Below are positions 8,804 to 58,310 of a DNA stretch of 64,000 nucleotides, in pieces. The translations under genes were made by a program, and so were the position numbers. Origin of the DNA: Aphrocallistes beatrix (Eukaryota; Porifera; Hexactinellida; Sceptrulophora; Aphrocallistidae); assembly GCA_963281255.1 (NCBI GenBank), contig OY725489.1, positions 1,178,001 through 1,242,000 on the forward strand. The letters run 5' to 3'. A model generated the notes under the pieces. The model saw only the letters and a program-made list of their open reading frames with translations, had not been told where the DNA came from and made no database searches. Numbering within the stretch: position 1 is the stretch's first letter; each line of letters opens with the position of its first letter.

Positions 8804-8811
8804 TTTATATG

Positions 8812-16541: not shown

Positions 16542-16639
16542 TGTCTACAGTCACGTATATGTTATTGACATGTAAGCTGCAAGAAATACTTCAATAGGCT
16601 GAATCTCTCAGCTACACATGTAGCTACACATGTAGCTAC

Positions 16640-22657: not shown

Positions 22658-23489
22658 ATGGCTTCTGGCCGCTCACCTCAGAGCTACCAATCTAGAGAGA
22701 TGCAATCTTATCCCGACAGAGATTCCGAAGCGACAGAATCCCCCTCCAGGGTACCAAGACCCTATCAAGAAGAACTCCTCCAAATAGCTCTCAAGGAGAA
22801 CACCATTATCGCGTTAGGTACCCATAACAATTCAGTATTTTCAAAACATTTCTATCATTGGTTGACTTGTTACAGAAGATCACGAATCTCTCTGATACGG
22901 ATACGTTTATATGTTACAGTTAAAACGTCAAATCTTATTATGGAAAATACCTGAAAAATTTCAGTTATATAATACCTGAAAATTTTCCATCAGTTATTAT
23001 GCAGAATACCTGAAATCTTTTTGTATTTTACATAACTTATTTGACGTTTTAATTGTAGCATATATACTTTTATTCTAAATCGATATACAGTCAGGTTCGC
23101 TTATTATGAACCCGCTTATTATGAACATTTGTTTATTATGAACTAACTCTCTGGTCCCAATTCAACAGGTTCCATAGGATTTGTATTAGGTCGAGTTCGC
23201 TTAATATGAAGTCTCTATTATGAACAGATTTTTGGTCCCCTGGTGGTTCATAATAAGCGACCCTGACTGTAGTTACCGATTTTGATTTTTCATATCATTT
23301 CTTAGGGAATTTAACCTAGATTTCTCGATATATTTTAGAGGTAATAGTTACTCACACAACCTGTTTATCTCCCACTAGGCACTGGCTGTGGTAAGACGCA
23401 CATTGCCTGTATGCTCATCAACGAAATGGCGCGCGATTGGAGTTCAGCAAGAACGAAAGGGCTGAAAGTGTTGTTCTTGGCACCAACAG
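22658..23489 (+). CDS. DICER1: Dicer exons 1-2: N-terminus and Walker A
   Basis: Exon 1 starts [11 protein letters not shown] and ends at IIALG; exon 2 completes the nucleotide-binding loop as [13 protein letters not shown] and ends LKVLFLAPT. The 561-bp intron 1 carries a 182-bp pogo-like MITE. The splice phases (G|GC and ACA G|AT) fit exon 3. Confidence 0.9.
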
Positions 23490-26400
23490 GTCAGCGTTTC
23501 AATTTTATTTTTCGTTAACACACAACAAATATACTCCTAGCTAGTATTTCAATATATGAACGTACACCTATCTCTACCTAGTAATGCTCTATGCATTATA
23601 GAAGAATAATGAGCAGGATGATCACTGGAGCTAGGAGGACAGCTGCCAATATGATCTGTGTCTTGTAGTACCGCCACAAGATGAACTTGAAACTCTTGAA
23701 AGGGGAGGTGAACCAAGCGAATGAGGTGGCTGGCCTATTCGGCTTGTCCAGGTGTGGGTTTGCATTTGGTTCGTCCCGCCCCTCTCCCGCTGGTCTCTCC
23801 GCTGCCTCTTCCGCTGTCAGCAGTTCAATCTCCATTTCTACCTTTCCAGTTATGGTCGGGTTATTTCCGTCTGGGTTTTTAATGACAGGCCACCAGCCAC
23901 GCATCCGCTTCCTCTTGAACAGGTTGTGTGCGTCCAGGAAGTCCTCCATCTGCTGCAGACTGCACCGGCTGGATGAAGAAGCGGGTCTGAAGAACTGAGT
24001 CAGTTTGAATTCAGCAGTGCCGATGAAATCCTCTGGGAGGAAGATGTCATTGTCCCACACCTGCACTACCAGCTCAGGTTCCAAATGCGTCTCCGTGGCG
24101 TCAATCTTCCAGAAGTGCTCCTTCTCCTGCACAACGATCTCCTGGTCTATTGGCAGGTACTTGAAGGGGAACACCAATCTCCAGTTGAACATTCCCTCTC
24201 CGTCCATGCTCCGATAATGGACGTCAGTCGATTTGCTCTTATTCTGTCCACGCAGGAATGCCTTGACGTAGATGTCCACTGCTCCCTCATCCTGGTAGAT
24301 AGGATTGTCTTGCAGCTCCACTCCTTTGGCATTCCACACCACAATCCTCAGCACCATGTCTTCAGGCTCTCTGACAGAGATGTCAACTGGTTTGGGAAGA
24401 AGACCATCCGATTTGGGGAAAATATCCACGAACATTTGTAGATACCCCTGAGGTATATCTCCTTGTATGGGATTGATGAGCTTACGTTCCTCGATGTGGT
24501 CTGGAACGTGATCAAACAAGTTTAGAAGATAGAGAGCCAATCTCTGCTTCTTACCACCTAGCTGTCTCATGAGTACCTTGCGTGCTGTGTCATCTCTGAT
24601 CTTAGGCAGTACTCCATCAGGTTCGAAATCATCCGTCAGAGTGAACTTCTGTCTACACACTTCAACTTCCGTATTTCCCCTCCACACTGCCTTGCCATAC
24701 TGCTTCGCCTTCAAGTACCTGTCCAACAGGTCTGAGGGCTGCAGTTGGTGCCTCCATTTGCAAGGGCCTGAGATGAAATAGTGCTTCGGAATGCCACAGG
24801 TGGCTTGGAAACTGGTTAGAAACCTGTTCTCAATGTCTACGCTGGTGTAGCCTATCAGGTCATCCGCTGAGGTAGCATCATGGTCCATCATGATGACTCT
24901 CATCTCGTGCTCTCTCGGCAGCTGCGATTCAAACTCGAACATTTTCCCGAACGTAGGATTGAGGTTGTTGGGTGTGTAGTTAGCCTTGTCATTCACTACC
25001 TCCTTGTCCCCTAGCACGATCTTGATGTAAGGATCCGACTTTCCGAACGGATCTTGTGGGGTTAATTGCTTTCCTTTTATAACATACACCCTCACGGTCA
25101 CCTCGTGTACGCCGTGCTCTGGAATGTCTTTGAACAAGAGCGGAATTGTTTGTGAGTTTGCCTCAGGGAGAGGATACACTTTAACGTCTCCTTTGAATAG
25201 TCCCATCGTTTCTAACTTCCTTTTAGCAGCTTTTCCACGTGTCAGTTTGAAGTCTTTAGTTCGATCTCCGAAATTTTCAAACGACTTTTCAATCTCTCTC
25301 TTGAAATACTCCATCGGCTCGTAGCCCTTGTCTACGAACCCAGAGGACTTATGCTCATCTCCGATACTCGCGTAGTATCTGCTCCACCAGTCGAAATCTG
25401 AATAGTCCAGATCTAGGTCGGCGGTGTCGATAGTTCCGGTGTCGAACTGGACGGTGAGGTGACTCAGAGCGTTGACTATCTTGGTTTGGGGACTCGGGGG
25501 TTCCTGAAGTTCTAATACTAACACCTCTCCTCTCCTCTCCTTCAAGTTGGGAAGGAGAGTTTCCGCCTGAGCAGAGCCTGGTGTGTGCACGAGGAATGGC
25601 TTCAACGAGGTGACCGTGTGTACTCCGACGATGGGGGTGCGGCCGAATAGCCTCTTGTCTAGAACTTGTATCTGCAGCGGGGGCATGTACACTGCTTCTT
25701 TAGGCAGGTCACATTCTATGTGTAAGCTTGGATGCGGAAAATTCGGATTAATAGATGCGTTTTTTATCGGTTCGCACTCAGCTTTCTCATCACCACAGGT
25801 TATCCTGACGAAAGGGTTATCTATAGAGGTTAACTGAAATCTCTTCATGTCCCTCACTCCCCATAGTAGAGCTTCTATCCGCATTTTATGTGTCTCGGGA
25901 CGTATCGACACAGGGACCTGATGATAAATGTCATCTGGAGAAAGCTGGAGTGGTTCAACTTTACTCAAATTCTGGCCATCAGGGTCTAGGAGAATAAGTT
26001 CAAACGAGGCTAGAAGCTCTCCCGCATCCAACCCTCCATGTGTGATGTCATACCATCTCAGCTTGGGTGGTGGTCCATCGACAACCAGTCTCACCTCCGG
26101 CTGTATCACCGTCTGCCCGAGAGGCTCAGTGACTAGCATCAGATCTTTGTCGATGAAGTCAATTACTATGATTGGAGGTGCGTTTTTGGTGAGTTCTGGT
26201 TCCCCGGAGAGAATGACGTCATTGAATGTCAGGGTCTGGTTCCAGGTTGGACATAATGTCTTGTTAATCGTGTGAGTTTTCTGACTCGAGTTTACGAAAG
26301 AGACGACTGCGTACGGATCAGAGAGTCCGTTCTTATCTCCTGATAGGAGTGTGCGTGCTTGGTAGATGTAAGCTCGCAGCATCCATTTGTACTCCGTGTC

Positions 26401-29400
26401 AAAGTTCATGAACACTCGGGGGGATTCGCGATGAGCTTTCTGCTTTCTGCTTGTTGTCTTTTCCTTTTTACTTTTGGGTGAATCTAGAGTAGATTCCTCA
26501 CTGGAGATGTTAAAAAGACTAGAAGAGTTTTTTTCTGTGGCTATCATTCTCTTCAGCCATCTCCTCCGTCGGAAGAAGTGTGTTATCTGCTTGACCCGGT
26601 AGAATGGTCCGCTGATCGTAGTAGCGTACTCCCACTGCTCATCTTCACTGATAGTCTGCGGCGGCTCTGTCTCAGATCTCACTCTCACTCGCACAATCTT
26701 CCTTCTCCTGACTACGGAATCCTCTCGCTCTATCGGATGGAATGCTTCTCTTAAATCAGCATTGTTACCATACTCCCATCCCTCCTCGTCTACTGCTCTA
26801 TTCGTATCAACAGTCCAGCTATCTTCCTTCCACTCCCAACCCTTGGTGCACTTTATGCTATTAGGATCAGAATTCTTATACCCGTCTTCATCTTCCCAAG
26901 TTAATTTAGCCTCACCCCAATCTTGGTCCTCATCATCTTTAGTTTTCACTTCGAATGTCTCTTCCATTATTTCTTTCATTTTGAACTCAGGATCGTACTC
27001 AGCATCTTCTGCTGAAGATTTGAACCATTCTCCGTCCCATCTCCATCCTTGAGGCAGTTGAAATGAGTCTTTCGGGAGACTGAAAGTGCCGGTACTATCC
27101 GACCATGCTGGTACCAATCCGAACATATTAGTGCCCCATGAAATCCCTTGTGTCAACTGGTTCTCGTAGGTTTCTGCGAAAGTCATCACAGTTCCCCCTG
27201 GAATGCATTCTTCCATATTACCTGTGTTCCTCTCTCTCCCCATCCACGCCACCAGCCTCACCTGTGCTCCTGTGTCCGCTCTCTCTTCTATTTCGACGTT
27301 TCTCGGCGGTTCTCTTAGAAACCGCGTGTGTATCTTTCCGCAATAAGTTCCCTTTGCTAGTGGGTTCTTGGAGAAGAAAATTTCATGAGCTGGGATTCGA
27401 GTTACTGCCACGCGGTCAGTCCCATGAATCATCCAAATAATCACGTCTGGGATTGAAATCTGGCTTTCCACAGTCAGGCATTTGATCCTGTTGAGGATCC
27501 CTTCACAACTCTGTAGGATGTAGTCCGTCTTAGTCAAATCCTCTCTAATCTTAACCAGCTCGTCGAGTAGGGACACTCTTTCCCCCTCGCGGATATTCCG
27601 CCAGTGGATATCTAACTCAGTGTGGGCATCTCTTGGCATTAGAGGCAAGGGCTCGTTCAACATACTGGACAAGTTATCGAACATGTTAGTGATTGCTTGT
27701 AGTATATCAGTCGTATCAACATCGCTCTTATCCATTTCTTTCACACTCTCTATCTCTTTATCGAACAGCTCTGCGATGTGTGTTAGAATATTCAGGCACT
27801 CAATCCTGTATGTATTGTTCTCCCAGTAGCAAGGTATCACGCAGCAGGGTTTCTTGTTCCTCCACGGGAGGAAGTAGAGGTGTTTGTCCTCGGACACAGG
27901 CTTGGTTGGCTGGGTGGTGCTAGGAGCAGGTATCGCATTCGGGTCTTCTCTGTACCCATAACTCCCGATGCTGACTTCAAATGAAACTTGTTGTGTGTGC
28001 TGTGCAAGCTGTGTTGCGTGGAAGAAAGCGACATAGACTCGATGCTTGTGTCTTTTCAGACTTTTCGCTAACGTTTTCGGCATTGAAAAGTGAGAATTCT
28101 GTGTATTCTTTGGGTATTGGCCGAGTTCCGTGCTCAATTGCATCAATAGTCTACCTCTGTAAGCTACGCCCTCATACATGCCCTCATTCAGATGTTCGTA
28201 CTCTGACCCTATGTGCTTGAACTCCCGTGTAGAGCCGTAGAAGTTGACCCATGCGGGTCCAAACATGGGTAGAAACCCCTTATCACCTTCAGGGATGGAC
28301 AGGTTAGAGAGGTAGAGGAACGCTGTGCCGATAATATCGTCTTGGGTGGCTTTATCCTTGTCATACAGTTGTATTTTTATTCTCTCACTCATAGATGGGA
28401 ACCGTGTACCTAAGTTGAGTGTTTCATTCCATTCAGGGTTGCATGTGACCCATCGTACCCCTGTACTCACCGTGTGTCCCGCATAGCTCACAGAGACATA
28501 CGGGTCCACTAGGTTCTTCGCATCTGTTGATTTCAGACGAAACGTTTTCTTCACTGTTTCCAAGTAGACTGGGTCCATTTGCGGAATGTCTTCGGCTCTA
28601 TAGATGCGGAGTTTAAAGGTGGCAGGTTGTAGGTTGACCCCTGCAGGACGCAGCAGGTTTCCCTCTATATCGTCGATGTGAGAAGTAGAAGGGTCATAAG
28701 GGGGCAGTGCGGTTGCATTGTCTCCAGGTCCAACCACCTGGAAGCTCATCTTGAGAAAGCCCTTAGGTCCTGATCCAGTGTCCTTATTGCTGGTCAGTAA
28801 GATCCATTTCTGTAGGAATCCGTGTTCTGGCTCATCGTAGATAGCGCCTACATCCATCTGGAAGCTGCCTATCAGATTCTCCATCATCACATACTTGCTG
28901 TTAACCACCTTTATCATTACCATCGTGTTGAATAGCTCCGCTGGTTTGGCGCTGATGTGGAATATCAGGATCTCGTCCCACACAGGGTTTGTACTGCTGT
29001 CAACACTCGACGTGCTTTTGGTCTGACTCCCAATATTAACCGCGCAGGAGGGATTAATGTTGCCTCCGCCACCTGCTAGTCTACGCGCCTCTATGCAGTG
29101 CACCTGTACTTGGAACTCAAGTGTTTCATTCGGGAGTCTCTTTCTAGCTTGACTACGTTTGAATTTCTCCGCTCTCGCCTCTGCAGATTTATTGCTATCC
29201 AGTCCTTTCAGGCCTGCAACATCGTCTCCTTCATTCTCATTATCAATAATGTCCCATTCTCCCTCCACATCTCCATCTCCTGTCCCCTCTTCTGCTCCTC
29301 CAGACATACCTACGGACTCCCGCTTAGTGCCACTGTGCTTTTTCCCTTTAGCCGTGTAGTGCACTATCAGGTTTACAATTCCTTGTGTTGGATGGCCTGA

Positions 29401-32400
29401 TCTGTCGAGGAGGCTTTGAGCTGGGATCGCTTGTGTGCCTGAGGCCACAGCTGTCCGTATTGGTATGGAGGCCTTCCCCATCAATTTGTCCCTCTCAAAC
29501 GTGTTTTCATCTTTAATTTCCAATTCGATTGTTTCGCTCCCATCTAAGGGCGAATTCAACTCAAACTCCAGGACTTGGTTCCATACAGGATTCAAATTCT
29601 TTTCAACAGTGCGTGTCTTTGAAGATTTGGTCTCGAACTTCACGATACAGTAAGGATCGCTCTTCTTTGTCCATTCTTGATTTTTTAGTCCAGACGCACT
29701 CTTAACTTCAACTCGCAACATTCTAAACTAAATAAGTGTTGGAATAGTTAACATAGTTTTAGCGGCTTTCATCGATTTAGAACTCCGAATACTGAATATT
29801 TAATAGAAATATTGCAACATTTCGTGATTGAATGGATTCCCATTCTTTTGATATGACACAATCGTAAAATGGAGAATTATCATCATTTTTGGTTCATTGA
29901 ATATATTAAAATTTCTTAATCATTATACATAAGGAGTTCATAAATAATTTAAACTCATTATTAATCTATCTCCTATTATTTGAGTTTTCCCTTGCACATA
30001 CTCGACTGTCACTTATCCTCACAACTATACGTAACATGCCTATTCCTATTATGAAGAGACCAGATCAACTATCGTATTAGCTAAAGCTAATCTTCCCAGA
30101 AAATTCATTTTATTGCTGTTGCAGTATCCGCCTAACTGATAAATGATATCTCTAGGTGCGAGTGTTGAATTTCCTTAATTTGTTAATTAAAATATTTTGA
30201 TTACTGATAATTCCCTGAAAATAATTTCAATAATATTCAAGGTGACCGTAGTGTTTGCCTTACTTATTAAAGCAGATGTTTGTAAATATAAATATCCTAC
30301 CTATGTGTATATGATCAGCAGTATGTACATAATTGCCTATTCTAAATGAGGTCATTGCAAGATATTACTGTTTTACCTCGTGTGTCTAACTGACATTCAG
30401 TGCATTATCATGAAGCAGTCACTCACTATTCAGTAAGATACCATAAGAGTCTGTCATGATTGGCAGCCACTCAGCTCAATTCTTAATACAGCTTAATTCC
30501 TAGATGCGCTTGTGCGACAGCAGACTAATGTGATAACTGACTCTACACGATTACGAGTGAACTACTACATGGGAGGTAGTGGGGTGTCTGAGTGGAAATG
30601 TGCAGATTGGGAACGAGAGTTGCGCACACTGGACGTTATGGTCATGGTAGCGCAGACCGCACTAAACGCCATTAATAGTGGAGTGCTCCCAGTTTCATGC
30701 ATCGGACTGCTGATATTCGACGAGTGTCACCATGCCAGGAAGAACCACCCGTACAGAGGCATCATGCGGACGCTGGAGACTAATTCTGCAAAGTTGAACT
30801 GCAACTTCCCTAAGATACTTGGCCTCAGCGCATCCATCGTTACCAAGTAAGCGCTGCCTTTACCTATATATACGTTTATATACATATTCACTCACTCTCT
30901 TACCTATCTACATTAAATAATTTATATATGATTTCGTATAATGTACCATCCTACTCTGAATCCCTTGAAATATCTTCGTTGATTCTACTAATATTTTGAT
31001 TGTGTGCTTTTACTATTCAGATAAATGAGCATTAGCAAGTTTAAATAAAACACCCAAGGGAATATCTGCAGTGTTTGTACTCCCATCTTGAGTTTGGAAA
31101 TCTCGAGAATAATAGTAAATCATAAGAAACATCGTTAAAATGTACCCACAGTCCACTCCACTGTTATGTGTGTGTGCAATTGACTCCATTCATGAACTCT
31201 GACCACTCCCTGGGTAAGGCAGGACACGAGTGTTATACTGAGCCAATGAATTTTTTTAAAATGGTGATATTTTATTTTTCCATTAATCATAATTTTTATC
31301 CCCAATTATGTACTAGAAATCTAAAGAATTTGGATAAAGTCGAAAATGAAATATTGGAGCTAGAGCACATCCTCCATTCAAGAGCAATCACTACCACTGA
31401 CACGAAGGGAATGTCTGTACACGTGACTAATCCCAGCGAAACAAATGTTTATTTTGATGAATTCGACATTGATAAGTTCAAATTAGCTCTCCAAAAAGTG
31501 AATGAGATGAAGTCATTTCTGGAGGTATTTCTACACAAAGATCAACTCAATCCTGGCAGAGAATTTTCTGCTAAAAATGCTGTCGAAGCATGCAAAAGCT
31601 GCATTACTGACTGCACGTATGCTCTGGGAGAGCTGGGAGTGGAGGCAGCCACCAGATGCATAGACCTGTGCGTTGAAGGTCTGGAGAAGTATCGGGTTAA
31701 TTACCTAGCATCCCAGAAGTCCTATTTAGCTAGATTCTCCAATCTCAACGAGCTGGAAACCCATTTCTTCTGTAATACTATTTCAGTGTTGAAGAAGTTT
31801 AAGTATGATCTGAAAAGATTCGACAGTAGGTAAGTGATTTCGTAATACTAAACTGATCCTGATTCAGATGAGAGAAAATGAAAATACAACTACATCATTT
31901 TAATTCATATTTTTAGTGACGATAAGTACAGTCCTAAAGTGAAGCAGCTATGTGTAACAATTAACAACTTTATCAAAAGCAAAATCTCTAGCTCGATAGA
32001 ATATTCCAAAAGTCCCAGTCCCATGTGCGGTATCGTCTTCACTTATAGGAGAATTGCCGCTGTGTTGTTGGAGTGGATTTTTAACGAAAAGAGGAGTGAA
32101 GTAGCGCCATCTGGTGTGAAATGTGGTCATGTGGTGGGACATGGAGGTAATTGTGCCACTTCGATTGGAGAGATGGACATAAATGAACAGGAACATGTGG
32201 GTATCTATTACGAGTTTTAATATATCTATTAGTTTACTAACAGAAGTGCCCCTAAACAACCTGAGTATACCCGGATACGCTCACTTGTTTGAAGTTGTTT
32301 CATATTGTCATTTCAGTTTATTTGCCCCGTGTTTGTTATTTTTTTAGGTGTTGGCCGCACTCTGATAATCTCTAATAAATTATATTCGTACATAAATGTT

Positions 32401-35400: not shown

Positions 35401-38400
35401 TGTCTCTAGCATTTTTTTGGAATTTATTTACTTTAAGTACCTATTATTTTTTAAAAATTTTTTGGATTCTCTTGCCAGTTCTTTTAACAAACAAACAACA
35501 AATATTAGCGTTTATACATAGTAAAAGATTTAATATTTTCCTATTCTTTTACCAGATAACATAAAAGGACGTATACTTCGTATAATGTTAACCAATATTG
35601 AGTAGAATCGAAATTACTTTATATTAACAGCTAGACATAATTTGAATCTAATTATTCATAAAGTTAAATTCTACTTCTGTATTTATTGGGATATTTTTCA
35701 TTTGTTTTAAATGCCTATGCTTTTGCTTATTTCAGCTATAGATGTACACAATACAGATATCGTACCAAATACTCCAAATTTGATATAATCGTATTGTTAG
35801 ATTTCACAGACGTCTGTACCATTATACTATAAGGGCATCTCCCTATAGGAGATCTGCTAAAAGTCTGAAATTACCAGTTTACATTGTAAAAGTTTGCGAT
35901 TGAAATATATTGTCTTATTGTCTGAATTAAAAAACAATCCACCATCATACAGAACTACATCCAGCTTCATGTTGTATCATCACACTCCGATATGTGGGAA
36001 CATATTTCCATCATGCCTGGAGTGTTTGATCAATATTTGTTAAGTAAAAGTAAAGTAAAGTTTAAGTATATTCTAACAGAATTTACCTCCTATCGCCCTA
36101 TTCAGTAGCACGCCTCATGCCATTCTCACTTGTGTTCCTTTTTATTTTTAAATAAAATCTCTCTACCAATGAAAAGTGTACTTAATCTCATACTTGCAAT
36201 GTACTATGGATTTTGCTAACTCATTTCCGATTAAGTATTTTGGGCGGGGAAACCTTAGAAATGTGGGCTCCCTACTTACTATAAATATAATGGACCCCAT
36301 GTCATTGCCGTTAGTACATATATTTGACTTGATTTCCTCATCTCTGTATTCATTGCTTGACTCCTGTCAATTTTATAAAGTAGTATATTTCAATGTTCCG
36401 GAACAGTATCTCCGTGTTTCGTTCATTTCTTACAGTGAAGAGTTCTTGGAAGCTCCAATGTTTTAGTTCCGAATCCGCTAAGACCGATTCTCCTGATACA
36501 AACTATTATCAGGCGAAAATGGAAGAGTTCCTGTCCGCAAAGAATAGACTTGCTTACATAATGGGAGCTGATCCTAACACTTTCACTGAGGGAGAAATGA
36601 AGGGGGCACTCACCTACCTAATTCCTCACCACATCCGTCCAGTCGCTACCCGGCCTCACATCCTGCATCCAGACGAGCTGAAACGAAGAAATAGAGTAGA
36701 GTTGAAAGTTCTGAGAGCTGATGTGAATAGCCGCCCCCTTGAACCCGGGTTCTATACCTCCAATCCGTTCTACCATAACTTCTTGCTAGATGTGATCCGG
36801 TTCAAGAAATATCTAGACACAGATGATGAGTCTTTCAAGCCTAAGAACATCACAGACCTCCCAGAGCCTGAAGACTGTACTCTAGAAACAATTCTAGATG
36901 CAAATGTATTCAAGTTTTTTGATAAAGATTCAATTGAGCTGGTTATCGGCGAGACCTTGTCGAACTGGTACTATGATAGCGTGCGAGAGGAAATAACCGG
37001 ACTAATCAAGTATCCAGGTGCGAACGAACTTGTGCTTACCTTTGTGAGGCCTTTCTTTCGGCCTTTGTTGAAAACAACGCCGAATATCAACGAAATCACA
37101 GAATACACTCACGAGTCGGGGGTACAGGTAGTCGAGCAGACAGGAAAGCGTAAATCGAGTAGTTCAGTGGTAAAGGTTTGGCGTGGAGACGGCTATATCA
37201 CTGTCAACGGTCGGTCTATGAGTGAGTACTTCAAGACCTTCCAGGACATGACACAGATCCTGTATCCGCTCAATATTATCGGAGCATTGGGAAAGTTCTC
37301 TGTAGATTGCCAAGTAGTGGATGGGGGCTCCTCAGGGCAGTCTGGAGCTATCCGTATTGCGCTCGCTAAAGCGCTCGCTTTCCTGGAACCTCAGTCTGCG
37401 CATATTCTCTCCGGCTCCGGCCTGCTGTGGACAGATTACAGGAGGAAGGAGGGGAAAAAACCGGGACGGATGAGAGCGAGAAGAGGGTTCACCTGGAGGA
37501 AGCGATAATCGATATTGTTAGATTCATTAAATTATAATTTGACTATCAAAATTAATAGTGTCGTAAACCATTATTTTAATTAAAAAGGAAGTAATTACAA
37601 CTAAAGTATCTAACAATGCTACAAAATACACAAGGGTAGACTAAAAGAAAATAACAGAACTCTATTCACAAACATGTATAATGTAGTACTACTCTGTCCT
37701 ACTCGGTTCTTAATACCCGTTTTGAGAGCCGAACTTATTCTCTATCTTCGCGTTGTTCGGGTTCTCCGGGGGGAGAAGTTCTGGATGGGTGGACTTGATC
37801 ACTTCGTATAAGACCTTGGCTGTGAGGGCTTGTCCCATCCTACTCGTATGAAACCCATCCACTGGTTCTATCAGTTCCCATCCTTCCTTTCCTTGACTCT
37901 CCCACTCTTTGATCATCTTTGCTATTGGGTTTTCAATGTAAACTAACTTGATTCTTTTGTAATTTTTCCCATCCACCACTTCATTGAGCGCTTTACTGAG
38001 ATTCAGAGCTCTATCATTGGTCACATTCCTCCAAGTTTCATTATCATTCAACCATCCGAAGCACGGACTGATCTCGAGACAGTTTAGATAATTGTAGAAC
38101 TGTCTGTAAGTAATGTCTTTTAAGAAGCTGGAAACCGGATGTATACGGTTGTGCATGTTATCGTAGAGAACGCGTCCGTCCGCTAAGCCTACTGCCAGCA
38201 CTACGCTGCTCTCAGGAAGAGTAGCCTCGAGGTAGTCTAGCACTTCATTCATATTCTTCTTGAACTCATCCACCGTGGTCATGTGATCCATTGAATGGTG
38301 GCTGTTGCATACGTCATTGCCAAGTAGAGCAAGCACTGCGAATATTGGTTTGTCTCTAGTGATGTTCCTTGCTAGGGTTTTTATGATCTTAAAGATGTTG

Positions 38401-41400
38401 GTTGAAGAAGCTCCATTTACAGCTATGTTCTGATAATCTCGATGGTTGCATCTATTCAAGTCGAGGAGTTGTTGGTAGAGAGACTTTACCTCGCCTGTTG
38501 CAGTGTCCCACTCGGACAACTTGTAGCCAGTGGCGGCGGACTCCATCGGCCAGTCAAACTCATTCTCAACCATTTCCGGTAGGTACTTATACGTTTCCGG
38601 TCCTATCTCGATTGGATCTACCAGTTCTCTTGGTAAATGGAAGTGTGCTCCGACACTATCTCCGTACACCACAGAGCCCATTGATTGTGTACCCCTGCAC
38701 CAGAGGTCTTCGTAGCTCTCCCCTGTATCGGCATCTATGCCTACGATCCCGTTACAGTTCGTATCGACTACTGCATCGTGTCCATCTCCTCTTCCTGGGT
38801 AGATTAGTTTATCGAAGTCATTACAATCCTTTCCTCTCCACGATGCACCTCTCAAAGTCCTTATGACTGAGAAATGGTCTTGATCCAGGTCCTGTGCAGG
38901 ATAGTGATCTTCAACCAGTTTAATTATCTTGCAGATTTCCTTAAAAGGCTCGAAATCACACATATCTTTCGGCATATGCGTTGTGAAGTGCTTAGCATGG
39001 CGATACCTGCTCACGTGAGCAGCTATTCTCCCCATGTCCCTGTGTCCAGGGTACAGAGTGCATTCTGTTTCTTTTCCTTTGCAAAGGGTTAGTCCGCGGC
39101 AGATTTTGTCCGGGTGTGTTGTCTCCTCTAACAGAATGAACAGAGGTAGACCGAATATATCAACGATATCTGTACAAGCTTTCCCGTATTCGCCCGGCAT
39201 ATAACTGCATAGCGTTTCTAATCCCTTCTCCACTGTAATGTTATTGTACTCGACATACTCCAGTACCACACCCACTACCATTGTGCATCCCACGCACCAG
39301 TAATCGCACGAGGCCGTCTGAATGTTCAGACTCAGAATCAGCGAGATGATAGTCAACAGACTTGTACACAATTTCATTTTGTATTTGCATTGCAAGAGGT
39401 TGGGTATTGTCACTTTTATAGAATTCTCTTACTACCTTTTCTAGGTAGAGAGACTATCAAGTTGTATTAGGTCACGTGCTCTAACTTCCTAATGATAACA
39501 TCACTTCCAATAATTCTAGTCTAATTCAGGAATATCCTATTTTTATACTTTATGGAGTATGTGTCCAGCTCTATTCGTGTCCTATTAGCTTAATATTCTG
39601 TTAGTTAAGACATTGAAAAACTTACATTTAATTTCATTGCTTTAAATCTTTTTGTGAAGCCATTATTTATTTCCTACTCATTTCCATAGATTCCCTCTGC
39701 TCTGAGAAAACCTCTGCAGCTCTACTATGACGGCAGTTCCCCACACTATATCTACCGATTCATTATAGTGCATAGGGAGAGTGAGGTTCCATATTGGGGA
39801 CAGGATAAAGACGAAGTGTCCCCCTTCGATCCTAACAACTACATTGGAATCATCACAGCAGAGAGTTTGCCGTATGCACAGGTATCCAAGACATTAGCCT
39901 AATACTTACTTGCTTATATAATATTCTCTTGATTTTCTCAGTTCTGATTCACTTACAATATAAGCTTTGAATTTCAATGTTCTTATAGATTCCAACGTTT
40001 GAGATCTTCTACCATGAGTTGAATTTGATGGTATCTTTGGAGCTGATAGCAACCAGGACTCCACTGAACAAGATCTACTCCCAGTTAGCCAAATTCCAGG
40101 ATTCAGTTTTCACAGAAATAATTCGTTGCAACATGGAGATCTTCAAGTATACACCAAACGAGAGTAACAAAAGAAGTTTTATGATATGTCCGCTTATTGA
40201 CCTTGAAGGGGGGAAGTGGGATTTTGATACCGAATGTTTGGATCTTTTCATATCGAATGCACCACTGACAGCTGATTTCGATGAATTCTATTTAAACCGC
40301 GTTGTAACATCTAGTTACCACGTTCCTAAGAGGTATTTCCATATCGTGAAGGTTAGTGACCGAATAACACTAAGGTCGCGATTCCCAGACCCCGAATATC
40401 CCACCTATGAGGACTACTATAGATTCAAACGAGGCATTACGTTTAGAGAGGAGGATTATTCAAAACATGCTCTTGAGGCTGTGTATGTGTCGGGGCACAT
40501 TAACCTGATCACTTCTAGGTAATCTGAGTATGAACTTTAATATGATTTGTCTTATTTAAATTCCAAAATATATCATGAGAATTAGCCTATTTTTGTTTTT
40601 GATATTTTTCAGTTTTCCCCTCTAATCATGTAGACATAAGACTGTCCAAGGCAAAGACCTTCCCAAGCGCGACTTTTCCCGGCATCAGAACCTGAACCTA
40701 TTCTCCCCTCACTTGACTGCACACCCCATCCCCAGCACCCTATGGAGACTCTGTGTCATCCTCCCATCCATCCTCTGGCGCCTGGAGAGCTTCCTGCTCA
40801 TGGCAGAGGTAGCGTCTCGCGTAGACGGGGTAGGGAGGGAGGGGGGAAAAGGGTACAGTATCCGTGAGGGACCTGATGTTAATGGTGTAAGACATGGTCA
40901 TCTCAACTATGAAACTCAACCGGAATTGTGCATTGAGAAGTCATCTTACGGTGAGAGTCCTAACCTCATAACTCTACTCACTGCCTGCACAGGTAAGTTC
41001 ATATAGAAGTAGATACGGCATAGTATTTAATGATTCACTAAAATATGACTCGTTTTATTATATTTATAAAGCACCCAATTTTGCGATCTTAAATTTGAAG
41101 GGAGATGTCTCTCATTTGCCCACAGAATCCTTGCTAGGAATATTCAATTGATTACTTCGATTAATCGGACATAGTATAATTTCCATTATTTTGTTTTGAT
41201 TAAGCGAGGTTTCCAATTGAGCGAAGTAGTTTCACTATTGCATGGGAATAATTCCTTTCAAAACTTGTCCCACTATGTAGTTGTCTCAAAATCTTAATTT
41301 TGATTCTATACTATATTAAATCAAAATGCGATTGGTGTCTACATCTTAGATGCCGTCGTAAACGAAATAAAAATAAGAGATCCAACTGACCCACTTTCAA

Positions 41401-44400
41401 TTACCTCTAATATATCGCCCCTCATATTTAACATTTTTCAGATTGATGTTCTTTTAATACAAGTACGTTATTTCAAAATCTACTTTACAAAATTACGTGT
41501 AATATAAGCGATCACTATCAACAAGCCTTGCAGGTAGGAGACAGTTGCTCTTTTGTACAATTTGATGCTGAAAAAGTTCCTATCTTCCCTAATAACACCC
41601 AACTTTTCTCCGGATAGCGACAAGTCTATTGTTCTGTCTCCCGGAATTACCGACATGTCTTGGTGTTCTTGTTCGATGATGATACTCATTTCCTTCTTAA
41701 ACCGCAATCGGATCTTTTTTCCACCACAGCGGAGACTGAATTTCGTCATGGCGCGGTTCCATTTAATCTTAGTGTCAGTGGGCGGTTTTGCTAATGTTGG
41801 ATCAAGAAGGTTATTTAACATGATATTTATATCTTCGTTTCTAGATGCTCTTTGTCGTGATAGCTTCATGCTACGTCCCATTGATTGGGAGAGTCGGGCG
41901 ATTTCTAAATTATATCCTAGCTGATGCTTCTGTATAACGAAAGTATTTTGATTTCCAAGCACCCCTTTCTTCTCCAGTTTGTAAGCGAAGAGATCTATCT
42001 CCTCACTGAATTCTCCCGGGTAGCATAGCACGGTGTGATGGATGTTTGTCTGTTTCTGAAACAGCCTGGGGAGTCGTGTCATATCAATTCTGTTCTCTTT
42101 CACAGCAGTCATGCACAGCTGTGATAAAGTGGGGACAGTTCTGTACAACACTAGACTTCCAACCTCGGCCGTAGTTGCGTAGACTAGAACATTCATGTCC
42201 GGACTGAGTGAGAGTGACGTCACGTGGTTTTTAATGGGAAGTTTATAGTTTATCACCTCGTGGCCTTCTTTCAAGCTTAAAACTGACAGACGCCTCCCTT
42301 CTATCGCTGTATTCGTAGCGACCAGTAGTAACCCATGCTCAGGGTATACGCTGTAGTGCTCCACATCAGATTTCAGTTCTTTAGCGGCTGTGAATGAAGT
42401 ATGGAAGAGAGTCAAGCACTGATTCGTGTCTGTAACCAAGAGGTGTCTCGGCGCAAAGAAACTGATCTGTGTGGAGTAGAAGAGAACGTAGGTGGAGGTG
42501 ATAACCCAGTGGAGGCCTTGCGTGGAGACCTCTATCACGAGGTGGTAGGGCACTGTTATGAAGATAGAACTGTCGTCATGACTCCACGCTAATCGCTGAC
42601 TCGGCGTTTCTCGCTCTCTGTGCAGCAGCCCCTGTCCCACCAGATGCCGCGGGTAGCACACCTTGGCGTGGGTGATCTGAGACTGAGAGAGGCTGGAGTA
42701 GACGTAGAGCGTCAAGGGGTGGCCTCTCTGCGAGCTAGCGCCAAGACAAGCTAGCCTGTTCCCATCATGGGACCAGTTGAGCCCCACTGTTGTGTTCTGG
42801 GTATAGTTTGGAGGTGTGAGTAAGCGCGTATCAACTTTAGGCGGTGGTTTGATATCCAACAGCATGACTGCACCGCTACGATCCGCGATGGCAGAGTAGG
42901 CGTGAGTGGAAGAACAGCTGATGTGTGTTACAGCGCCGAGATTTAGTGAAAGGGTGAGGCTCTGTGGGTTTGCTGTGATCGGGGGTATGGGGTACCAGGT
43001 CACACCTACGCTCCCATTCTGCAGTCCAGTGATGAGACAAGAGGAGACGGGGGAGATTCGCTGCCAGGCTAATGCTGATACAGACACTGGCGTCTTGATT
43101 GGAGTGTAGCGAGAGGGAAATATTTGAGTTATCATTTCATTTAGTTTCGTTGTTTCCTACATTATGATTCATTTATAGTTTCGACGCGATTGATACTTGT
43201 CTGTGGTTCTAGTATCGTGTTATTGAACGTGTCAACAATTCTTTTCGATTGTATCAAATTCTGACTGGACTCTTTCATCATTGACAAACTTGACATGTCT
43301 GAGAGTAACATTAGAATGGAATGTTATTTCATCAGATTACTTGAAATATTATAGGCAAATTTGAAACTGGAAATATTAGCACATATTAATGCTATTACAG
43401 TATACATAACGACATTATGGATACGTATCAGTCTTTGGTGGTTTCAATTGTATTAGTATTTAAAGGAGACAATGATAACACAAATTGAATTTAATGTTTA
43501 TGCTGATTAATCAGATGATAATGTTAGATTCTTCTAGCTAATCTGGTTAATTATTAATGAGTATGTTAATGTGTAGCTGCTTCAGCTGGGGACCTGGTGA
43601 ATCTCGAGCGCCAGGAATTTCTAGGCGACAGTTTTCTCAAGTTGATCTCCTCGATTCACTACTTCACTACTGACAGCAAGAGGAGTGAACGAGATCTGAC
43701 TGAACTGAGACTGAAGTTCGTATCTAACGAGACATTGCATGCACTGGGAGTGAAGAAGGGGTTTGTGAATGTGATTAGAGTTGCAGCATTCGATGTGCGA
43801 ACTCACTACTCACCTCCTGGCTACTCCTTCAAGACACAAGTACTAGAACGTATGAACTCATCCATTCCTTAACAAACGTCACATACATCTTAGTCTTGAA
43901 TTCTGTTCATTTCTAGATTCGATCGAACGCATTCCTCCTGGTAAAGATATGATGACAACAGCAGAAGGGTTCCGTATTCTCTCAGAAAGTCGAGGAAATA
44001 TCTTCAAAAATAATATTGTCACTGCACATCAGCTACCATTCTGCTTCCAGCAGTTCAACGACAAGACCACTGCAGACTGTATGGAAGCTGTACTCTGTGC
44101 CTACGTGCAATCAGGAGGGATACACCAAGGAATCAAATTCCTATCTTACCTCGATCCAGAAATAGGATCTAGTACTTCATTCACTAGATCCAACCCCAGC
44201 GAGCATTTCGCAGAGATGGGACACTTTTTCAGTCCTACTAATGCCTTCTCACACTATTGGCATGAGTATGAGAGTAAGAATCTACATTTGGAGTACTCTC
44301 CTGGGGAAGTGAGCGATCTGCCTCCTGAAAAATGGAGGAGAATACAGCAGTTCCAGACTAGTTTGAACTATAAATTCAACAATATTCTCCTTTTGGTTGA

Positions 44401-45774
44401 GGCTTTCACTCATTCTTCTTTCATGGCTAAGATCACTCCAAGCGGCAAAGCAAGGTTGAATTTGCAAGTACAGTCGAATTCTGTTTTTTTTGTCCATTGA
44501 TTTCATAACCTAGGCAACAAAAAAACCCCGACTATTTTGTAATGGAGTTACTACTAATATAAAACAATGTTTATAGAGAGCCTAGCAACAAAAAACAAAG
44601 ACAAAAAAATGGGGTCAAAGAAAACCGACTTCGAATGTATAAACTTGATTCAGATTTGTGTTTTATTTGATATTTTTAAGTACACTTTCTTTAGGCCCAG
44701 CTATCAGCGTCTTGAGTTTCTCGGAGACGCTCTCTTAGACTATTTCACCTGTGTTTACATGTACCAGAAATATAAGAACTTTCTGCCTGAACAGCTGACG
44801 CAACTAAGAACGGCCGTGGTCAACAACAAACGATTGTCTACAATCGCACTGAAATGTCACTGGTACATCTGTATCCTCTCCAATGAGAAGCTCGCCGCTT
44901 CCATCAACTCCTCTTATTACAGCTACCAAGAAGAGATGACCAGTGTATGTATTAGCCATAGTAATTAGTACTATTAGTACTCCATAGTAATCGTTAGTCT
45001 TTAGAATGTTCATGTTTTAGAGTCAAGACTATGGACGGATACAGTATCCGAAACCTCTCGCTGACGTTGTAGAGGCAGTTGTAGCAGCTGTGTTTGTAGA
45101 TTCTAAATTCTCACTTGACACAATTTGGACTGTATTCAGTCCAATCTTCAAACCAATTATAGGTCAGTTAATTAACATTTCCGATCCCTGTTCTCGTCAG
45201 TCATTAGAACTTTTCAAAACTTTGTCTGTGTACGGATGATGGACAGTAATTTGAAAGAATTGCGTGACATCTCCATGACACTACGGTATGAGGACAATAA
45301 CTGATAACTGGATTGTTTAGATGAACTGGCGTTGAACATACCTAAGAACCCAGTCAACCTCCTCTACGAGCGTGTCCCCCGAGACCAACTCGCCATAAAG
45401 TAAGTTTTCATTCTTACCAGATGTCACATGGTCATACACGTATGTACTTACACATATGCTGCGTCATCTCCGTTTCTGGCTGCCTTTTTAATTTAGAGAA
45501 ACGTCTTAATGCCATTGATAGATGCGAATAAGATTTGTCATTGTTAATAGCAAATAAATAGTATACTAGTATATCAGTGAAAGTATACACATTATTACGT
45601 AGTGATTTGACACTTAATACCTGCAATAGGATTAAACGACTGGACAGACAGAAATACGAGTGCACTATCCGCGTAAAAGAGATGATTTACACTGAATACG
45701 GAGACTCGCAGGACACTGCCAGGTATATCTGTGCTCAGACAGCGATACAGGATTTGACTCGAGTTGTTTTGTGA
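22658..45774 (+). CDS. DICER1: Dicer, 18-exon gene with nested genes in its introns
   Basis: Dicer cuts double-stranded RNA into small RNAs. My exon model (all GT-AG): 22658-22817, 23379-23489, 30504-30846, 31317-31829, 31917-32196, 32409-32597, 33119-33309, 33391-33532, 33883-34080, 39690-39881, 39989-40518, 40634-40992, 43577-43849, 43917-44454, 44695-44944, 45021-45162, 45321-45399, 45630-45774. They total 4,635 nt, an exact multiple of three, giving 1,544 aa. Order: DExD/H helicase with Walker A GTGCGKTH and DECH box, insertion helices, helicase C-half ([19 protein letters not shown]), dimerisation domain, platform/PAZ, two RNase III domains and a short dsRBD-like end. It is shorter than human DICER1 (1,922 aa). 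Introns 2, 9 and 12 hold five other genes. The weakest junction is the exon 14 donor (AG|GTTGAA). Confidence 0.93.
23088..23269. mobile_element. Short pogo-like MITE in Dicer intron 1
   Basis: A 182-bp element with ends CAGTCAGGTTCGCTTATTAT and its near complement ATAATAAGCGACCCTGACTG, flanked by TA on both sides. Internal CTTATTATGAAC motifs repeat. The same family occurs at 49689-49872. Confidence 0.9.
23596..29721 (-). CDS. Type-I ferlin (dysferlin/myoferlin-like), nested in Dicer intron 2
   Basis: A single uninterrupted frame of 2,041 aa, close to human dysferlin (about 2,080). Approximate order: C2A 1-110, C2B 200-335, FerI and C2C 365-490, FerA/FerB 650-820, DysF 885-1060 (tryptophan-rich [18 protein letters not shown]), C2D from 1110, C2E from 1277, C2F from 1537 ([21 protein letters not shown]), C2G from 1789, and a C-terminal anchor at 2019-2041. 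Ferlins are tail-anchored calcium sensors for membrane fusion and repair; the DysF block places it with dysferlin, myoferlin and FER1L5 rather than otoferlin. Opposite in strand to its host gene. A 6.1-kb gene without introns is unusual for this family. Confidence 0.95.
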   Translation of the reverse strand: MLRVEVKSASGLKNQEWTKKSDPYCIVKFETKSSKTRTVEKNLNPVWNQVLEFELNSPLDGSETIELEIKDENTFERDKLMGKASIPIRTAVASGTQAIPAQSLLDRSGHPTQGIVNLIVHYTAKGKKHSGTKRESVGMSGGAEEGTGDGDVEGEWDIIDNENEGDDVAGLKGLDSNKSAEARAEKFKRSQARKRLPNETLEFQVQVHCIEARRLAGGGGNINPSCAVNIGSQTKSTSSVDSSTNPVWDEILIFHISAKPAELFNTMVMIKVVNSKYVMMENLIGSFQMDVGAIYDEPEHGFLQKWILLTSNKDTGSGPKGFLKMSFQVVGPGDNATALPPYDPSTSHIDDIEGNLLRPAGVNLQPATFKLRIYRAEDIPQMDPVYLETVKKTFRLKSTDAKNLVDPYVSVSYAGHTVSTGVRWVTCNPEWNETLNLGTRFPSMSERIKIQLYDKDKATQDDIIGTAFLYLSNLSIPEGDKGFLPMFGPAWVNFYGSTREFKHIGSEYEHLNEGMYEGVAYRGRLLMQLSTELGQYPKNTQNSHFSMPKTLAKSLKRHKHRVYVAFFHATQLAQHTQQVSFEVSIGSYGYREDPNAIPAPSTTQPTKPVSEDKHLYFLPWRNKKPCCVIPCYWENNTYRIECLNILTHIAELFDKEIESVKEMDKSDVDTTDILQAITNMFDNLSSMLNEPLPLMPRDAHTELDIHWRNIREGERVSLLDELVKIREDLTKTDYILQSCEGILNRIKCLTVESQISIPDVIIWMIHGTDRVAVTRIPAHEIFFSKNPLAKGTYCGKIHTRFLREPPRNVEIEERADTGAQVRLVAWMGRERNTGNMEECIPGGTVMTFAETYENQLTQGISWGTNMFGLVPAWSDSTGTFSLPKDSFQLPQGWRWDGEWFKSSAEDAEYDPEFKMKEIMEETFEVKTKDDEDQDWGEAKLTWEDEDGYKNSDPNSIKCTKGWEWKEDSWTVDTNRAVDEEGWEYGNNADLREAFHPIEREDSVVRRRKIVRVRVRSETEPPQTISEDEQWEYATTISGPFYRVKQITHFFRRRRWLKRMIATEKNSSSLFNISSEESTLDSPKSKKEKTTSRKQKAHRESPRVFMNFDTEYKWMLRAYIYQARTLLSGDKNGLSDPYAVVSFVNSSQKTHTINKTLCPTWNQTLTFNDVILSGEPELTKNAPPIIVIDFIDKDLMLVTEPLGQTVIQPEVRLVVDGPPPKLRWYDITHGGLDAGELLASFELILLDPDGQNLSKVEPLQLSPDDIYHQVPVSIRPETHKMRIEALLWGVRDMKRFQLTSIDNPFVRITCGDEKAECEPIKNASINPNFPHPSLHIECDLPKEAVYMPPLQIQVLDKRLFGRTPIVGVHTVTSLKPFLVHTPGSAQAETLLPNLKERRGEVLVLELQEPPSPQTKIVNALSHLTVQFDTGTIDTADLDLDYSDFDWWSRYYASIGDEHKSSGFVDKGYEPMEYFKREIEKSFENFGDRTKDFKLTRGKAAKRKLETMGLFKGDVKVYPLPEANSQTIPLLFKDIPEHGVHEVTVRVYVIKGKQLTPQDPFGKSDPYIKIVLGDKEVVNDKANYTPNNLNPTFGKMFEFESQLPREHEMRVIMMDHDATSADDLIGYTSVDIENRFLTSFQATCGIPKHYFISGPCKWRHQLQPSDLLDRYLKAKQYGKAVWRGNTEVEVCRQKFTLTDDFEPDGVLPKIRDDTARKVLMRQLGGKKQRLALYLLNLFDHVPDHIEERKLINPIQGDIPQGYLQMFVDIFPKSDGLLPKPVDISVREPEDMVLRIVVWNAKGVELQDNPIYQDEGAVDIYVKAFLRGQNKSKSTDVHYRSMDGEGMFNWRLVFPFKYLPIDQEIVVQEKEHFWKIDATETHLEPELVVQVWDNDIFLPEDFIGTAEFKLTQFFRPASSSSRCSLQQMEDFLDAHNLFKRKRMRGWWPVIKNPDGNNPTITGKVEMEIELLTAEEAAERPAGEGRDEPNANPHLDKPNRPATSFAWFTSPFKSFKFILWRYYKTQIILAAVLLAPVIILLIILL
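29722..30503. other. Remainder of Dicer intron 2
   Basis: AT-rich DNA upstream of the ferlin start; it probably contains the ferlin promoter. It ends at a TTCCTAG acceptor for Dicer exon 3. No other feature is seen. Confidence 0.5.
30504..34080 (+). CDS. DICER1: Dicer exons 3-9: rest of helicase and dimerisation domain
   Basis: Exon 3 carries [11 protein letters not shown], the DECH box ([16 protein letters not shown]) and ILGLSASIV. Exon 4 is the helical insertion ([10 protein letters not shown]). Exons 5-6 carry the second RecA lobe: [56 protein letters not shown]. Exons 7-9 carry the dimerisation (DUF283) region ([17 protein letters not shown]). The introns are 80-470 bp except intron 6, which holds part of a dispersed repeat. 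Confidence 0.9.
32940..33060. repeat. Dispersed CCCCGCC repeat, copy 1 (Dicer intron 6)
   Basis: GGGGTATTTTCTATTTATAG, then TTCCCCGCCCAAAATGG and GACGCAACACATTCC. The same order of blocks recurs at 54270-54395, and a shorter inverted relative lies at 36236-36305. Confidence 0.65.
34479..35177 (+). CDS. SAM-domain protein with Cys-rich segment, nested in Dicer intron 9
   Basis: The frame is open from a TTG at 34455, but the first ATG is at 34479, giving 232 aa. Residues about 20-90 form a SAM domain: W-x-E-K-D-V-A-x-x-F, [32 protein letters not shown] charged linker ([12 protein letters not shown]) follows. Residues 115-140 are rich in Cys and Trp ([14 protein letters not shown]), and a second Cys cluster [13 protein letters not shown] precedes a C-terminal half that reads like a small beta-rich lipid- or protein-binding module. 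SAM domains mediate oligomerisation; the Cys clusters suggest palmitoylation or metal binding. I do not recognise the full architecture. Same strand as Dicer, single exon. Confidence 0.75.
   Translation: MAVVSQPKITHTDAENVLKSMEVSKIRGWNEKDVAENFLKPLGFEYSAKIFEENKITGVCLLAMTDAHLKELNILLLGDRIHMVEYLEVLKKKRKQEDRGKTLWEGQTPVKAYAYSDNCCQWVYWWCCPCFVYKTTWRITSQGIRHRKPRVFGEADAGFIDFRFLKDIETRHENRCGCCCQYHQLVLFADDASTQKKDADGTEELIIISHPDCLHIEDVVRNAWTDVKLVAD
35178..36392. other. Dicer intron 9, between nested SAM and MRPS9 genes
   Basis: Contains a minus-strand solo copy of the 140-bp repeat at about 35345-35430 (CGATATTCGGAATCTACACC, TAAAAACCCCAGATCAACCG) and a short inverted CCCCGCC repeat relative at 36236-36305. 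No extra gene is seen. Confidence 0.6.
36393..37508 (+). CDS. MRPS9: Mitochondrial ribosomal protein uS9m, nested in Dicer intron 9
   Basis: A 371-residue single-exon protein. The N-terminus ([16 protein letters not shown]) is basic and amphipathic, as expected for a mitochondrial presequence. Residues about 40-240 match the long metazoan extension of the mitochondrial protein. The S9 domain occupies about 255-371: [50 protein letters not shown] and the basic tail [16 protein letters not shown], which in ribosomes reaches the P-site tRNA. It is a structural protein of the mitochondrial small subunit. It lies on the same strand as Dicer and ends 202 bp before the convergent acyloxyacyl hydrolase stop. 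Confidence 0.95.
   Translation: MFRNSISVFRSFLTVKSSWKLQCFSSESAKTDSPDTNYYQAKMEEFLSAKNRLAYIMGADPNTFTEGEMKGALTYLIPHHIRPVATRPHILHPDELKRRNRVELKVLRADVNSRPLEPGFYTSNPFYHNFLLDVIRFKKYLDTDDESFKPKNITDLPEPEDCTLETILDANVFKFFDKDSIELVIGETLSNWYYDSVREEITGLIKYPGANELVLTFVRPFFRPLLKTTPNINEITEYTHESGVQVVEQTGKRKSSSSVVKVWRGDGYITVNGRSMSEYFKTFQDMTQILYPLNIIGALGKFSVDCQVVDGGSSGQSGAIRIALAKALAFLEPQSAHILSGSGLLWTDYRRKEGKKPGRMRARRGFTWRKR
37710..39377 (-). CDS. AOAH: Acyloxyacyl hydrolase, nested in Dicer intron 9
   Basis: The first ATG in frame is at 39377, giving 555 aa (human AOAH has 575); the frame extends upstream only from a GTG. It has a hydrophobic signal peptide ([16 protein letters not shown]), then a saposin-B domain with paired Cys ([33 protein letters not shown]), a linker with calcium-site-like Asp runs ([15 protein letters not shown]), and a GDSL-type hydrolase with [11 protein letters not shown] carrying the catalytic Ser, plus GNDVC and DGFHTSRMG carrying the Asp/His. 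It is predicted to be secreted or lysosomal. In vertebrates it removes secondary acyl chains from lipopolysaccharide and some phospholipids. All catalytic landmarks are present. Confidence 0.95.
   Translation of the reverse strand: MKLCTSLLTIISLILSLNIQTASCDYWCVGCTMVVGVVLEYVEYNNITVEKGLETLCSYMPGEYGKACTDIVDIFGLPLFILLEETTHPDKICRGLTLCKGKETECTLYPGHRDMGRIAAHVSRYRHAKHFTTHMPKDMCDFEPFKEICKIIKLVEDHYPAQDLDQDHFSVIRTLRGASWRGKDCNDFDKLIYPGRGDGHDAVVDTNCNGIVGIDADTGESYEDLWCRGTQSMGSVVYGDSVGAHFHLPRELVDPIEIGPETYKYLPEMVENEFDWPMESAATGYKLSEWDTATGEVKSLYQQLLDLNRCNHRDYQNIAVNGASSTNIFKIIKTLARNITRDKPIFAVLALLGNDVCNSHHSMDHMTTVDEFKKNMNEVLDYLEATLPESSVVLAVGLADGRVLYDNMHNRIHPVSSFLKDITYRQFYNYLNCLEISPCFGWLNDNETWRNVTNDRALNLSKALNEVVDGKNYKRIKLVYIENPIAKMIKEWESQGKEGWELIEPVDGFHTSRMGQALTAKVLYEVIKSTHPELLPPENPNNAKIENKFGSQNGY
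39690..40992 (+). CDS. DICER1: Dicer exons 10-12: platform, PAZ and connector
   Basis: Exon 10 begins [15 protein letters not shown] (platform). Exon 11 carries [49 protein letters not shown] and [18 protein letters not shown], the PAZ region that holds RNA 3' ends. Exon 12 starts at 40634, where the alternative acceptor at 40613 would hit a stop, and reaches the conserved [11 protein letters not shown] and [16 protein letters not shown], ending LLTACT. Confidence 0.9.
41480..43135 (-). CDS. WD-repeat-like propeller protein, nested in Dicer intron 12
   Basis: A single-exon protein of 551 aa. The first about 330 residues show spaced WD/YVTN-like blades: [12 protein letters not shown] with [75 protein letters not shown], and [18 protein letters not shown]. 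The C-terminal about 200 residues are non-repetitive and end in a hydrophobic stretch ([16 protein letters not shown]). I cannot assign it to a named WD family. It is predicted to be a scaffold; its position inside Dicer does not by itself imply a link to RNA interference. Confidence 0.75.
   Translation of the reverse strand: MITQIFPSRYTPIKTPVSVSALAWQRISPVSSCLITGLQNGSVGVTWYPIPPITANPQSLTLSLNLGAVTHISCSSTHAYSAIADRSGAVMLLDIKPPPKVDTRLLTPPNYTQNTTVGLNWSHDGNRLACLGASSQRGHPLTLYVYSSLSQSQITHAKVCYPRHLVGQGLLHRERETPSQRLAWSHDDSSIFITVPYHLVIEVSTQGLHWVITSTYVLFYSTQISFFAPRHLLVTDTNQCLTLFHTSFTAAKELKSDVEHYSVYPEHGLLLVATNTAIEGRRLSVLSLKEGHEVINYKLPIKNHVTSLSLSPDMNVLVYATTAEVGSLVLYRTVPTLSQLCMTAVKENRIDMTRLPRLFQKQTNIHHTVLCYPGEFSEEIDLFAYKLEKKGVLGNQNTFVIQKHQLGYNLEIARLSQSMGRSMKLSRQRASRNEDINIMLNNLLDPTLAKPPTDTKIKWNRAMTKFSLRCGGKKIRLRFKKEMSIIIEQEHQDMSVIPGDRTIDLSLSGEKLGVIREDRNFFSIKLYKRATVSYLQGLLIVIAYITRNFVK
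43577..45774 (+). CDS. DICER1: Dicer exons 13-18: RNase IIIa, RNase IIIb, dsRBD-like end
   Basis: RNase IIIa starts in exon 13 with [22 protein letters not shown], keeping the Glu and Asp of the metal site, and its second acidic pair lies in exon 14 ([12 protein letters not shown]). RNase IIIb spans exons 14-16: [28 protein letters not shown] and [15 protein letters not shown], again with Glu/Asp and Asp/Glu retained. Exons 17-18 end in a short dsRBD-like sequence ([16 protein letters not shown]). Both catalytic centres look intact. Confidence 0.92.
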
Positions 45775-57800: not shown

Positions 57801-58228
57801 AAGACAACATGTCCCCTTTCTTGAAGCTGAGCACCCCCTCCTCGTTGGACTCGAAGTTGTAGAGAGCTGAGAGTCGCTGTGTTGCCTTGGTGGCAGCGGT
57901 GGTGGTGGTGGATGGCACCGGCTCCAGGGAAGACTTAGTCGGGTAGTTGGTGGATCTGCTGGGCTTCGCTTCTTTGTCGGAAGAAGACTGGGACCTCCTC
58001 GGAGACGCTTCGTAGTGGATGTTATCCTGCACTGGAGAGATAGAAGACCGCGACTTCTCCGCCTGCTTCTGCGTATTGAGGTCTGCGTAGAACTCCATCA
58101 AGGTGTTGCTGTCCACATAGGTGTCGTGCTGTACCGATACAGGTACCGGTTTCTGTTTCGGTTGGGAGGGGGCGGGAGTGTCCTCAGGGATGATTGGGTT
58201 GTAAGATGTCAGGTAGATTTCTTCCTTG

Positions 58229-58310
<82 letters not shown>

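Follow-up and report, generated by a model that had tools for sequence, protein, structure and literature searches.

The Dicer gene found at 22658..45774 on the plus strand of the window (the whole stretch of 64,000 nucleotides that was analyzed) is very probably the canonical Dicer of a hexactinellid sponge, three of whose 17 introns house five independent intronless genes, each of which would have transcription of its own and would need no regulatory link to the host. Exon decoding gave 18 exons, a coding sequence of 4635 bp (a multiple of three), and a protein of 1544 aa. The decoder combined simple GT..AG splice scores with codon log-odds for which long open frames served as training set; the guest ORFs were masked, and the start and stop were fixed at the positions 22658 and 45774 proposed by the first-pass annotation. 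Its 18-exon structure with a length divisible by three was recovered by this decoding at two of four intron penalties, identical exons being obtained at penalties 6 and 8, compared with 21 exons at penalty 4 and 17 at penalty 10. It counts against our reading that the antisense guest ORFs had to be masked and that the decoding differed at the other two penalties. At all four, introns 2 and 12 kept their ends, as did intron 9 or its counterpart. In unmasked decoding, exons ran antisense through the ferlin, acyloxyacyl hydrolase (AOAH), or fifth guest gene depending on the penalty, and these models were rejected. Each of the 17 introns starts with GT and ends with TAG, GT..AG having been imposed by the decoder and T at position -3 being only slightly favored over C.

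The three guest-bearing introns measure 7014 bp (intron 2, 23490..30503), 5609 bp (intron 9, 34081..39689), and 2584 bp (intron 12, 40993..43576), which reproduces the lengths of 7.0, 5.6, and 2.6 kb noted before. The remaining 14 introns span 67-561 bp, and 12 of them do not exceed 470 bp, so that the earlier statement that most other introns lie between 65 and 470 bp also stands. Once the guest coding sequences are subtracted, introns 2, 9, and 12 would measure approximately 0.9, 2.1, and 0.9 kb; they are long because genes sit in them. Along the plus strand, exons 1-2 (22658-22817 and 23379-23489; span 22658..23489) encode the helicase motif I region, with a Pfam DEAD match at residues 34-209, and intron 2 splits this helicase domain at residue 90. 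The remaining helicase and the Dicer dimerisation domain are encoded by exons 3-9 (30504..34080), which are followed by intron 9 at residue 709, whereas the putative platform and PAZ region and the start of RNase IIIa belong to exons 10-12 (39690..40992). Intron 12 (residue 1069) falls close to where RNase IIIa begins; exons 13-18 (43577..45774) encode RNase IIIa, RNase IIIb, and a dsRBD-like end.

The predicted protein can be assigned to the canonical animal-type Dicers based on its sequence. Its best solved-structure match is 7zpi_A, named Endoribonuclease Dicer (E 4.3e-151), which is mouse Dicer; the solved chains of this name come from mouse and human. Pfam matches over the cut-off were obtained for both helicase domains (PF00270, E 3.8e-17; PF00271, E 4.2e-15), the Dicer dimerisation domain (PF03368, E 3.5e-17), and two RNase III stretches (PF00636), and the translation contains EFLGD and later D..E motifs, presumably the catalytic acidic residues. 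The host resembles animal Dicer in having a helicase, a dimerisation domain, a putative platform/PAZ region, two RNase III domains, and a dsRBD-like end, but differs from it in that Pfam gives no match for PAZ and places the platform and dsRBD matches below the cut-off. Residues 753-1003 nevertheless align by phmmer to a solved Dicer fragment (E 4.2e-21).

In addition, the genome contains three further Dicer-type genes, located on contigs C14 (L021), C2 at 1.83 Mb (L022), and C17 (L023), each encoded in a single long open frame (1522, 1508, and 1511 aa). In L023, the helicase GKT and DEAD-type motifs are missing from the translation and no Pfam helicase match was obtained. Two Dicers apiece have been reported from two demosponges, according to the part of that report considered here (PMC4752309). 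Outside these four Dicer-type genes, a single RNase III match (E 1.3e-4) was observed at C1:316092-316346, which could represent Drosha or another RNase III protein. Four PAZ-domain (Argonaute-type) matches within about 15 kb at C13:446328-460862 probably form a tandem cluster.

The intronless paralogues were used in place of cDNA for checking the guest-bearing junctions, which is evidence at the protein level. Against all three, junctions 2 (residue 90) and 12 (residue 1069) align without gaps over the eight residues displayed on either side, and junction 9 (residue 709, within a shared Y-x-x-K-[I/L] stretch) is gap-free for six residues before and seven after, with gaps beyond; junctions 2 and 9 are also gap-free nearby in the displayed part of the alignment with the solved Dicer chain. 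Reading past the donor leads to a stop after nine, two, and four codons in introns 2, 9, and 12, respectively. These observations support the earlier claim of a single Dicer gene that would be continuous across three long guest-bearing introns. It is quite unlikely that the segments instead represent at least two distinct genes, such as a helicase-only and an RNase III-only gene, separated by ordinary genes. On that view, the guests found on the host strand between exons 9 and 10, followed by poly(A) hexamers, would suit intergenic neighbors, and a two-strand gene finder gave Dicer as separate pieces; however, intron 2 cuts the helicase domain, intron 12 lies near the start of RNase IIIa, all three junctions are gap-free nearby when compared with intact intronless Dicers, the frame of exon 9 meets a stop two codons past the donor, and the open frame of exon 10 has no ATG. 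That gene finder merged neighboring genes in its first run and broke Dicer into pieces at a higher intron cost, and neither run was used as a count of nested genes.

By coordinates, the coding regions of all five guests lie wholly inside one host intron each. Every guest is a single open frame, three being antisense to Dicer and two on the same strand. Intron 2 contains a ferlin gene on the minus strand (23596..29721, 6126 bp, 2041 aa) with Pfam C2, Ferlin_C, FerB, and FerI domains. Intron 9 contains three genes: a SAM-domain protein gene on the plus strand (34479..35177, 232 aa; Pfam SAM_1, E 5.9e-8), the gene for the mitochondrial ribosomal protein uS9m (MRPS9), also on the plus strand (36393..37508, 371 aa; Pfam ribosomal S9), and an AOAH gene on the minus strand (37710..39377, 555 aa) with Pfam saposin and lipase domains. 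The ferlin, SAM, ribosomal S9, and AOAH saposin and lipase matches passed the Pfam cut-offs, and solved structures were matched by AOAH (a solved AOAH, E 3.8e-128) and by uS9m (E 1e-42). The fifth guest, in intron 12 (41480..43135 on the minus strand, 551 aa), has an intact frame and may encode a beta-propeller protein. Its domain matches are solely to beta-propeller families and all below the cut-off (best E 0.001), a PDB search gave nothing at E 0.1, and an AlphaFold model built from a two-sequence alignment was unusable (mean pLDDT 34.6). The earlier description of five single-exon guests holds in that each is one open frame and ferlin, SAM, MRPS9, and AOAH could be identified, whereas the name 'WD-repeat' for the fifth, resting on sub-cut-off matches, is not established. 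Base shuffles of two sampled regions (five per region) yielded no ORF of at least 250 aa.

Elsewhere in the genome, a ferlin paralogue is encoded by a single frame of 2162 aa, the SAM guest has two single-frame paralogues (50% and 48% identity), and the fifth guest has a single-frame paralogue (43% identity) and a weaker match (27%) with an internal stop, whereas the guest copies of uS9m and AOAH are the only genomic matches to these genes. As the guest paralogues are single-frame or the guests are lone matches, these searches revealed no surviving intron-bearing parent of a recent guest copy. The guests probably came into the Dicer introns as intronless gene copies, either retroposed or duplicated, in a genome where single-exon genes abound, and may have been retained since intron space tolerates genes. 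Each of them would have a promoter and a poly(A) signal of its own within the intron spacers, and the Dicer pre-mRNA would be read through, with the long introns spliced out normally; a regulatory link between Dicer and its guests would be unnecessary. It is very unlikely that the introns hold a conserved multi-gene nest of the sponge lineage, with Dicer output being tuned by transcription of the guests. If it were true, the RNA-interference enzyme would be tied to translation in mitochondria (uS9m) as well as to lipid/membrane genes (AOAH and ferlin).

Candidate poly(A) hexamers were located from the sequence and by themselves do not prove usage. For ferlin, an AATAAA at 23504..23509 (minus strand) lies between the ferlin stop and Dicer exon 2, 14 bp from the exon. 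An AATAAA on the host strand (35314..35319, plus) is found about 137 bp past the stop of the SAM gene, and the hexamer nearest to the fifth guest, an AATAAA on the minus strand, is 61 bp from Dicer exon 12. The uS9m and AOAH genes are convergent, with 201 bp between their stops (37509-37709), and their ATTAAA hexamers at 37526..37584 overlap on both strands (37526 and 37579 on the plus strand for uS9m; 37575 on the minus strand for AOAH). If these hexamers are used, the mRNAs of the antisense guests would end within introns or at an exon edge, and would thus have little or no complementarity to Dicer mRNA.

This bears on the proposal of the first-pass annotation that antisense guests pair with the Dicer pre-mRNA as double-stranded RNA in a loop of Dicer self-regulation, which we consider highly improbable. 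Three of the five guests are indeed antisense, the ferlin AATAAA is so close to exon 2 that the transcripts may overlap slightly where the exon ends, and in C. elegans a host gene can be induced by a gene nested antisense within it, as described in the relevant part of PMC12274878. However, introns contain both the coding regions and the closest hexamers of all three antisense guests, leaving little or no mature complementarity, and opposite-strand nesting is the usual bias (74.3% in human and 77.8% in mouse, as quoted from PMC8467205). With the predicted guest transcripts ending within introns or at an exon edge, the proposed loop was not upheld. That an assembly join put unrelated genes into the Dicer introns is scarcely credible: the window contains no N and lies within a 7.6 Mb contig, and three joins would be required, each with a matching frame and GT..AG ends.

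The assignment to a hexactinellid sponge was judged from the mitochondrial genome, contig C28 of 17,996 bp, with COX1 recognized by Pfam. The cox1 frame has 16 AGA, 14 TGA, and no TGG codons; the nad3 frame has one TGG codon, and a nad1 stretch whose frame is provisional has two. The contig also has an atp9-like frame, and nad3 adjoins cox1; these genes were named by eye from their translations. The whole contig has an A+T content of 71.3%, an AT skew of 0.17, and a GC skew of -0.29, compared with 70.7%, 0.18, and -0.28 given for Aphrocallistes vastus in the consulted part of its mitochondrial report (PMC2267718). Traits described there for hexactinellid mtDNA were found here, including AGR as serine, rare TGG, atp9, and positive AT with negative GC skew. 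The cox3 gene (8806-9590, named by eye) is shifted by +1 at TGG-GGA (residue 140), and a cox3 frameshift at the same position has been published for A. vastus (PMC2267718). In that species, the 17,427-bp mtDNA is described as having a +1 frameshift in cox3 and another in nad6 (PMC2267718), whereas here the nad6 frame (also named by eye) is open and without a frameshift. The unbroken nad6 and the different mtDNA size indicate a relative of the published A. vastus and not that species itself, and the genome would thus belong to a hexactinellid sponge near Aphrocallistes.

Intronless genes are widespread in this genome. Two sampled regions contain 16 (84 kb) and six (60 kb) non-overlapping frames of at least 250 aa, and 14 of 16 PAZ matches in the genome lie within open frames of at least 500 aa. 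Among the kinase matches listed, 115 of 130 show no stop across 240 or more of the 263 positions, a count made by reading the listing and based on 127 scored candidates out of 460, with a bias towards intact ones. The two-strand gene finder at higher intron cost predicted single-exon genes in 16 of 21 cases (84 kb) and seven of nine (60 kb); these counts cover predictions of about 120 aa or more with a score >15, some of which are antisense to larger genes and probably false. Within the window, a PI3K p101-like adaptor (1020 aa, 46218-49280) and an intersectin-like protein (1868 aa, 54832-60438) are each encoded by a single open frame, and a sulfotransferase on the minus strand (15640-16544), probably encoded by two exons, falls into two open frames that overlap. 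The minus strand at 7.6-17.6 kb was scanned against Pfam in three frames for a possible second host; this gave a DUSP domain and no protease domain, and a second nest in the window is not claimed.

Among sponges, nested genes have been recorded from one glass sponge and from some, but not all, of the others. In A. vastus, 2,432 of 19,578 genes (12.4%) were reported as nested, with 12,409 single-exon transcripts (PMC10282587, table 1). In the same table, counts are 3,358 for Amphimedon, 5,032 for Sycon, 0 for Ephydatia, and 83 for Oopsacas minuta, the other annotated glass sponge, whose low number speaks against our preferred reading; low counts were suspected by the authors to be an effect of annotation settings. 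They also give 5 to 10% nested genes as typical of other genomes, consider about 10% nested exonic bases normal across phyla (methods), and suggest retrotransposition as a possible primary breaker of synteny (section 2.2), in the sections of PMC10282587 drawn on here. The word 'Dicer' is absent from the main text of this paper, as are 'Dicer' and 'nested' from that of the O. minuta genome paper (PMC10280926). In open-licence literature on nested genes and sponge Dicers, Dicer is not named as a nested-gene host in titles or abstract openings, and no paper combining Dicer, Hexactinellida, and introns was found in such literature.

In view of these reports, the claim that so many guests in one gene are striking is weakened as regards the kind of arrangement: the layout is already known from A. 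vastus, with its 12.4% nested genes and mostly single-exon transcripts. The locus provides a clean, dense case of gene nesting in a compact animal genome, in which the sole genomic matches to uS9m and AOAH sit in the introns of a core RNA-interference gene and intronless Dicer paralogues offer an internal check on splice junctions. It should also be a good place for studying how a host transcript gets past same-strand poly(A) signals. As in A. vastus, which by mtDNA belongs to the same sponge class and counts the single-exon glassin gene among its 2,432 nested genes (PMC10282587, as far as consulted), genes lie in host introns and many are single-exon; unlike in that report, five guests share one Dicer host here. 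Mammalian nested genes, as characterized in the part of PMC8467205 considered, are similar in that internal genes are typically short and intronless, external genes have large introns, and most pairs are opposite-strand. They differ in that frequencies of 4.3-8.7% over seven vertebrates are given there, whereas here three of five guests are opposite-strand and one guest coding sequence extends over 6.1 kb. The Dicer locus is therefore a dense example of the published genes-within-genes pattern and not a new kind of arrangement.
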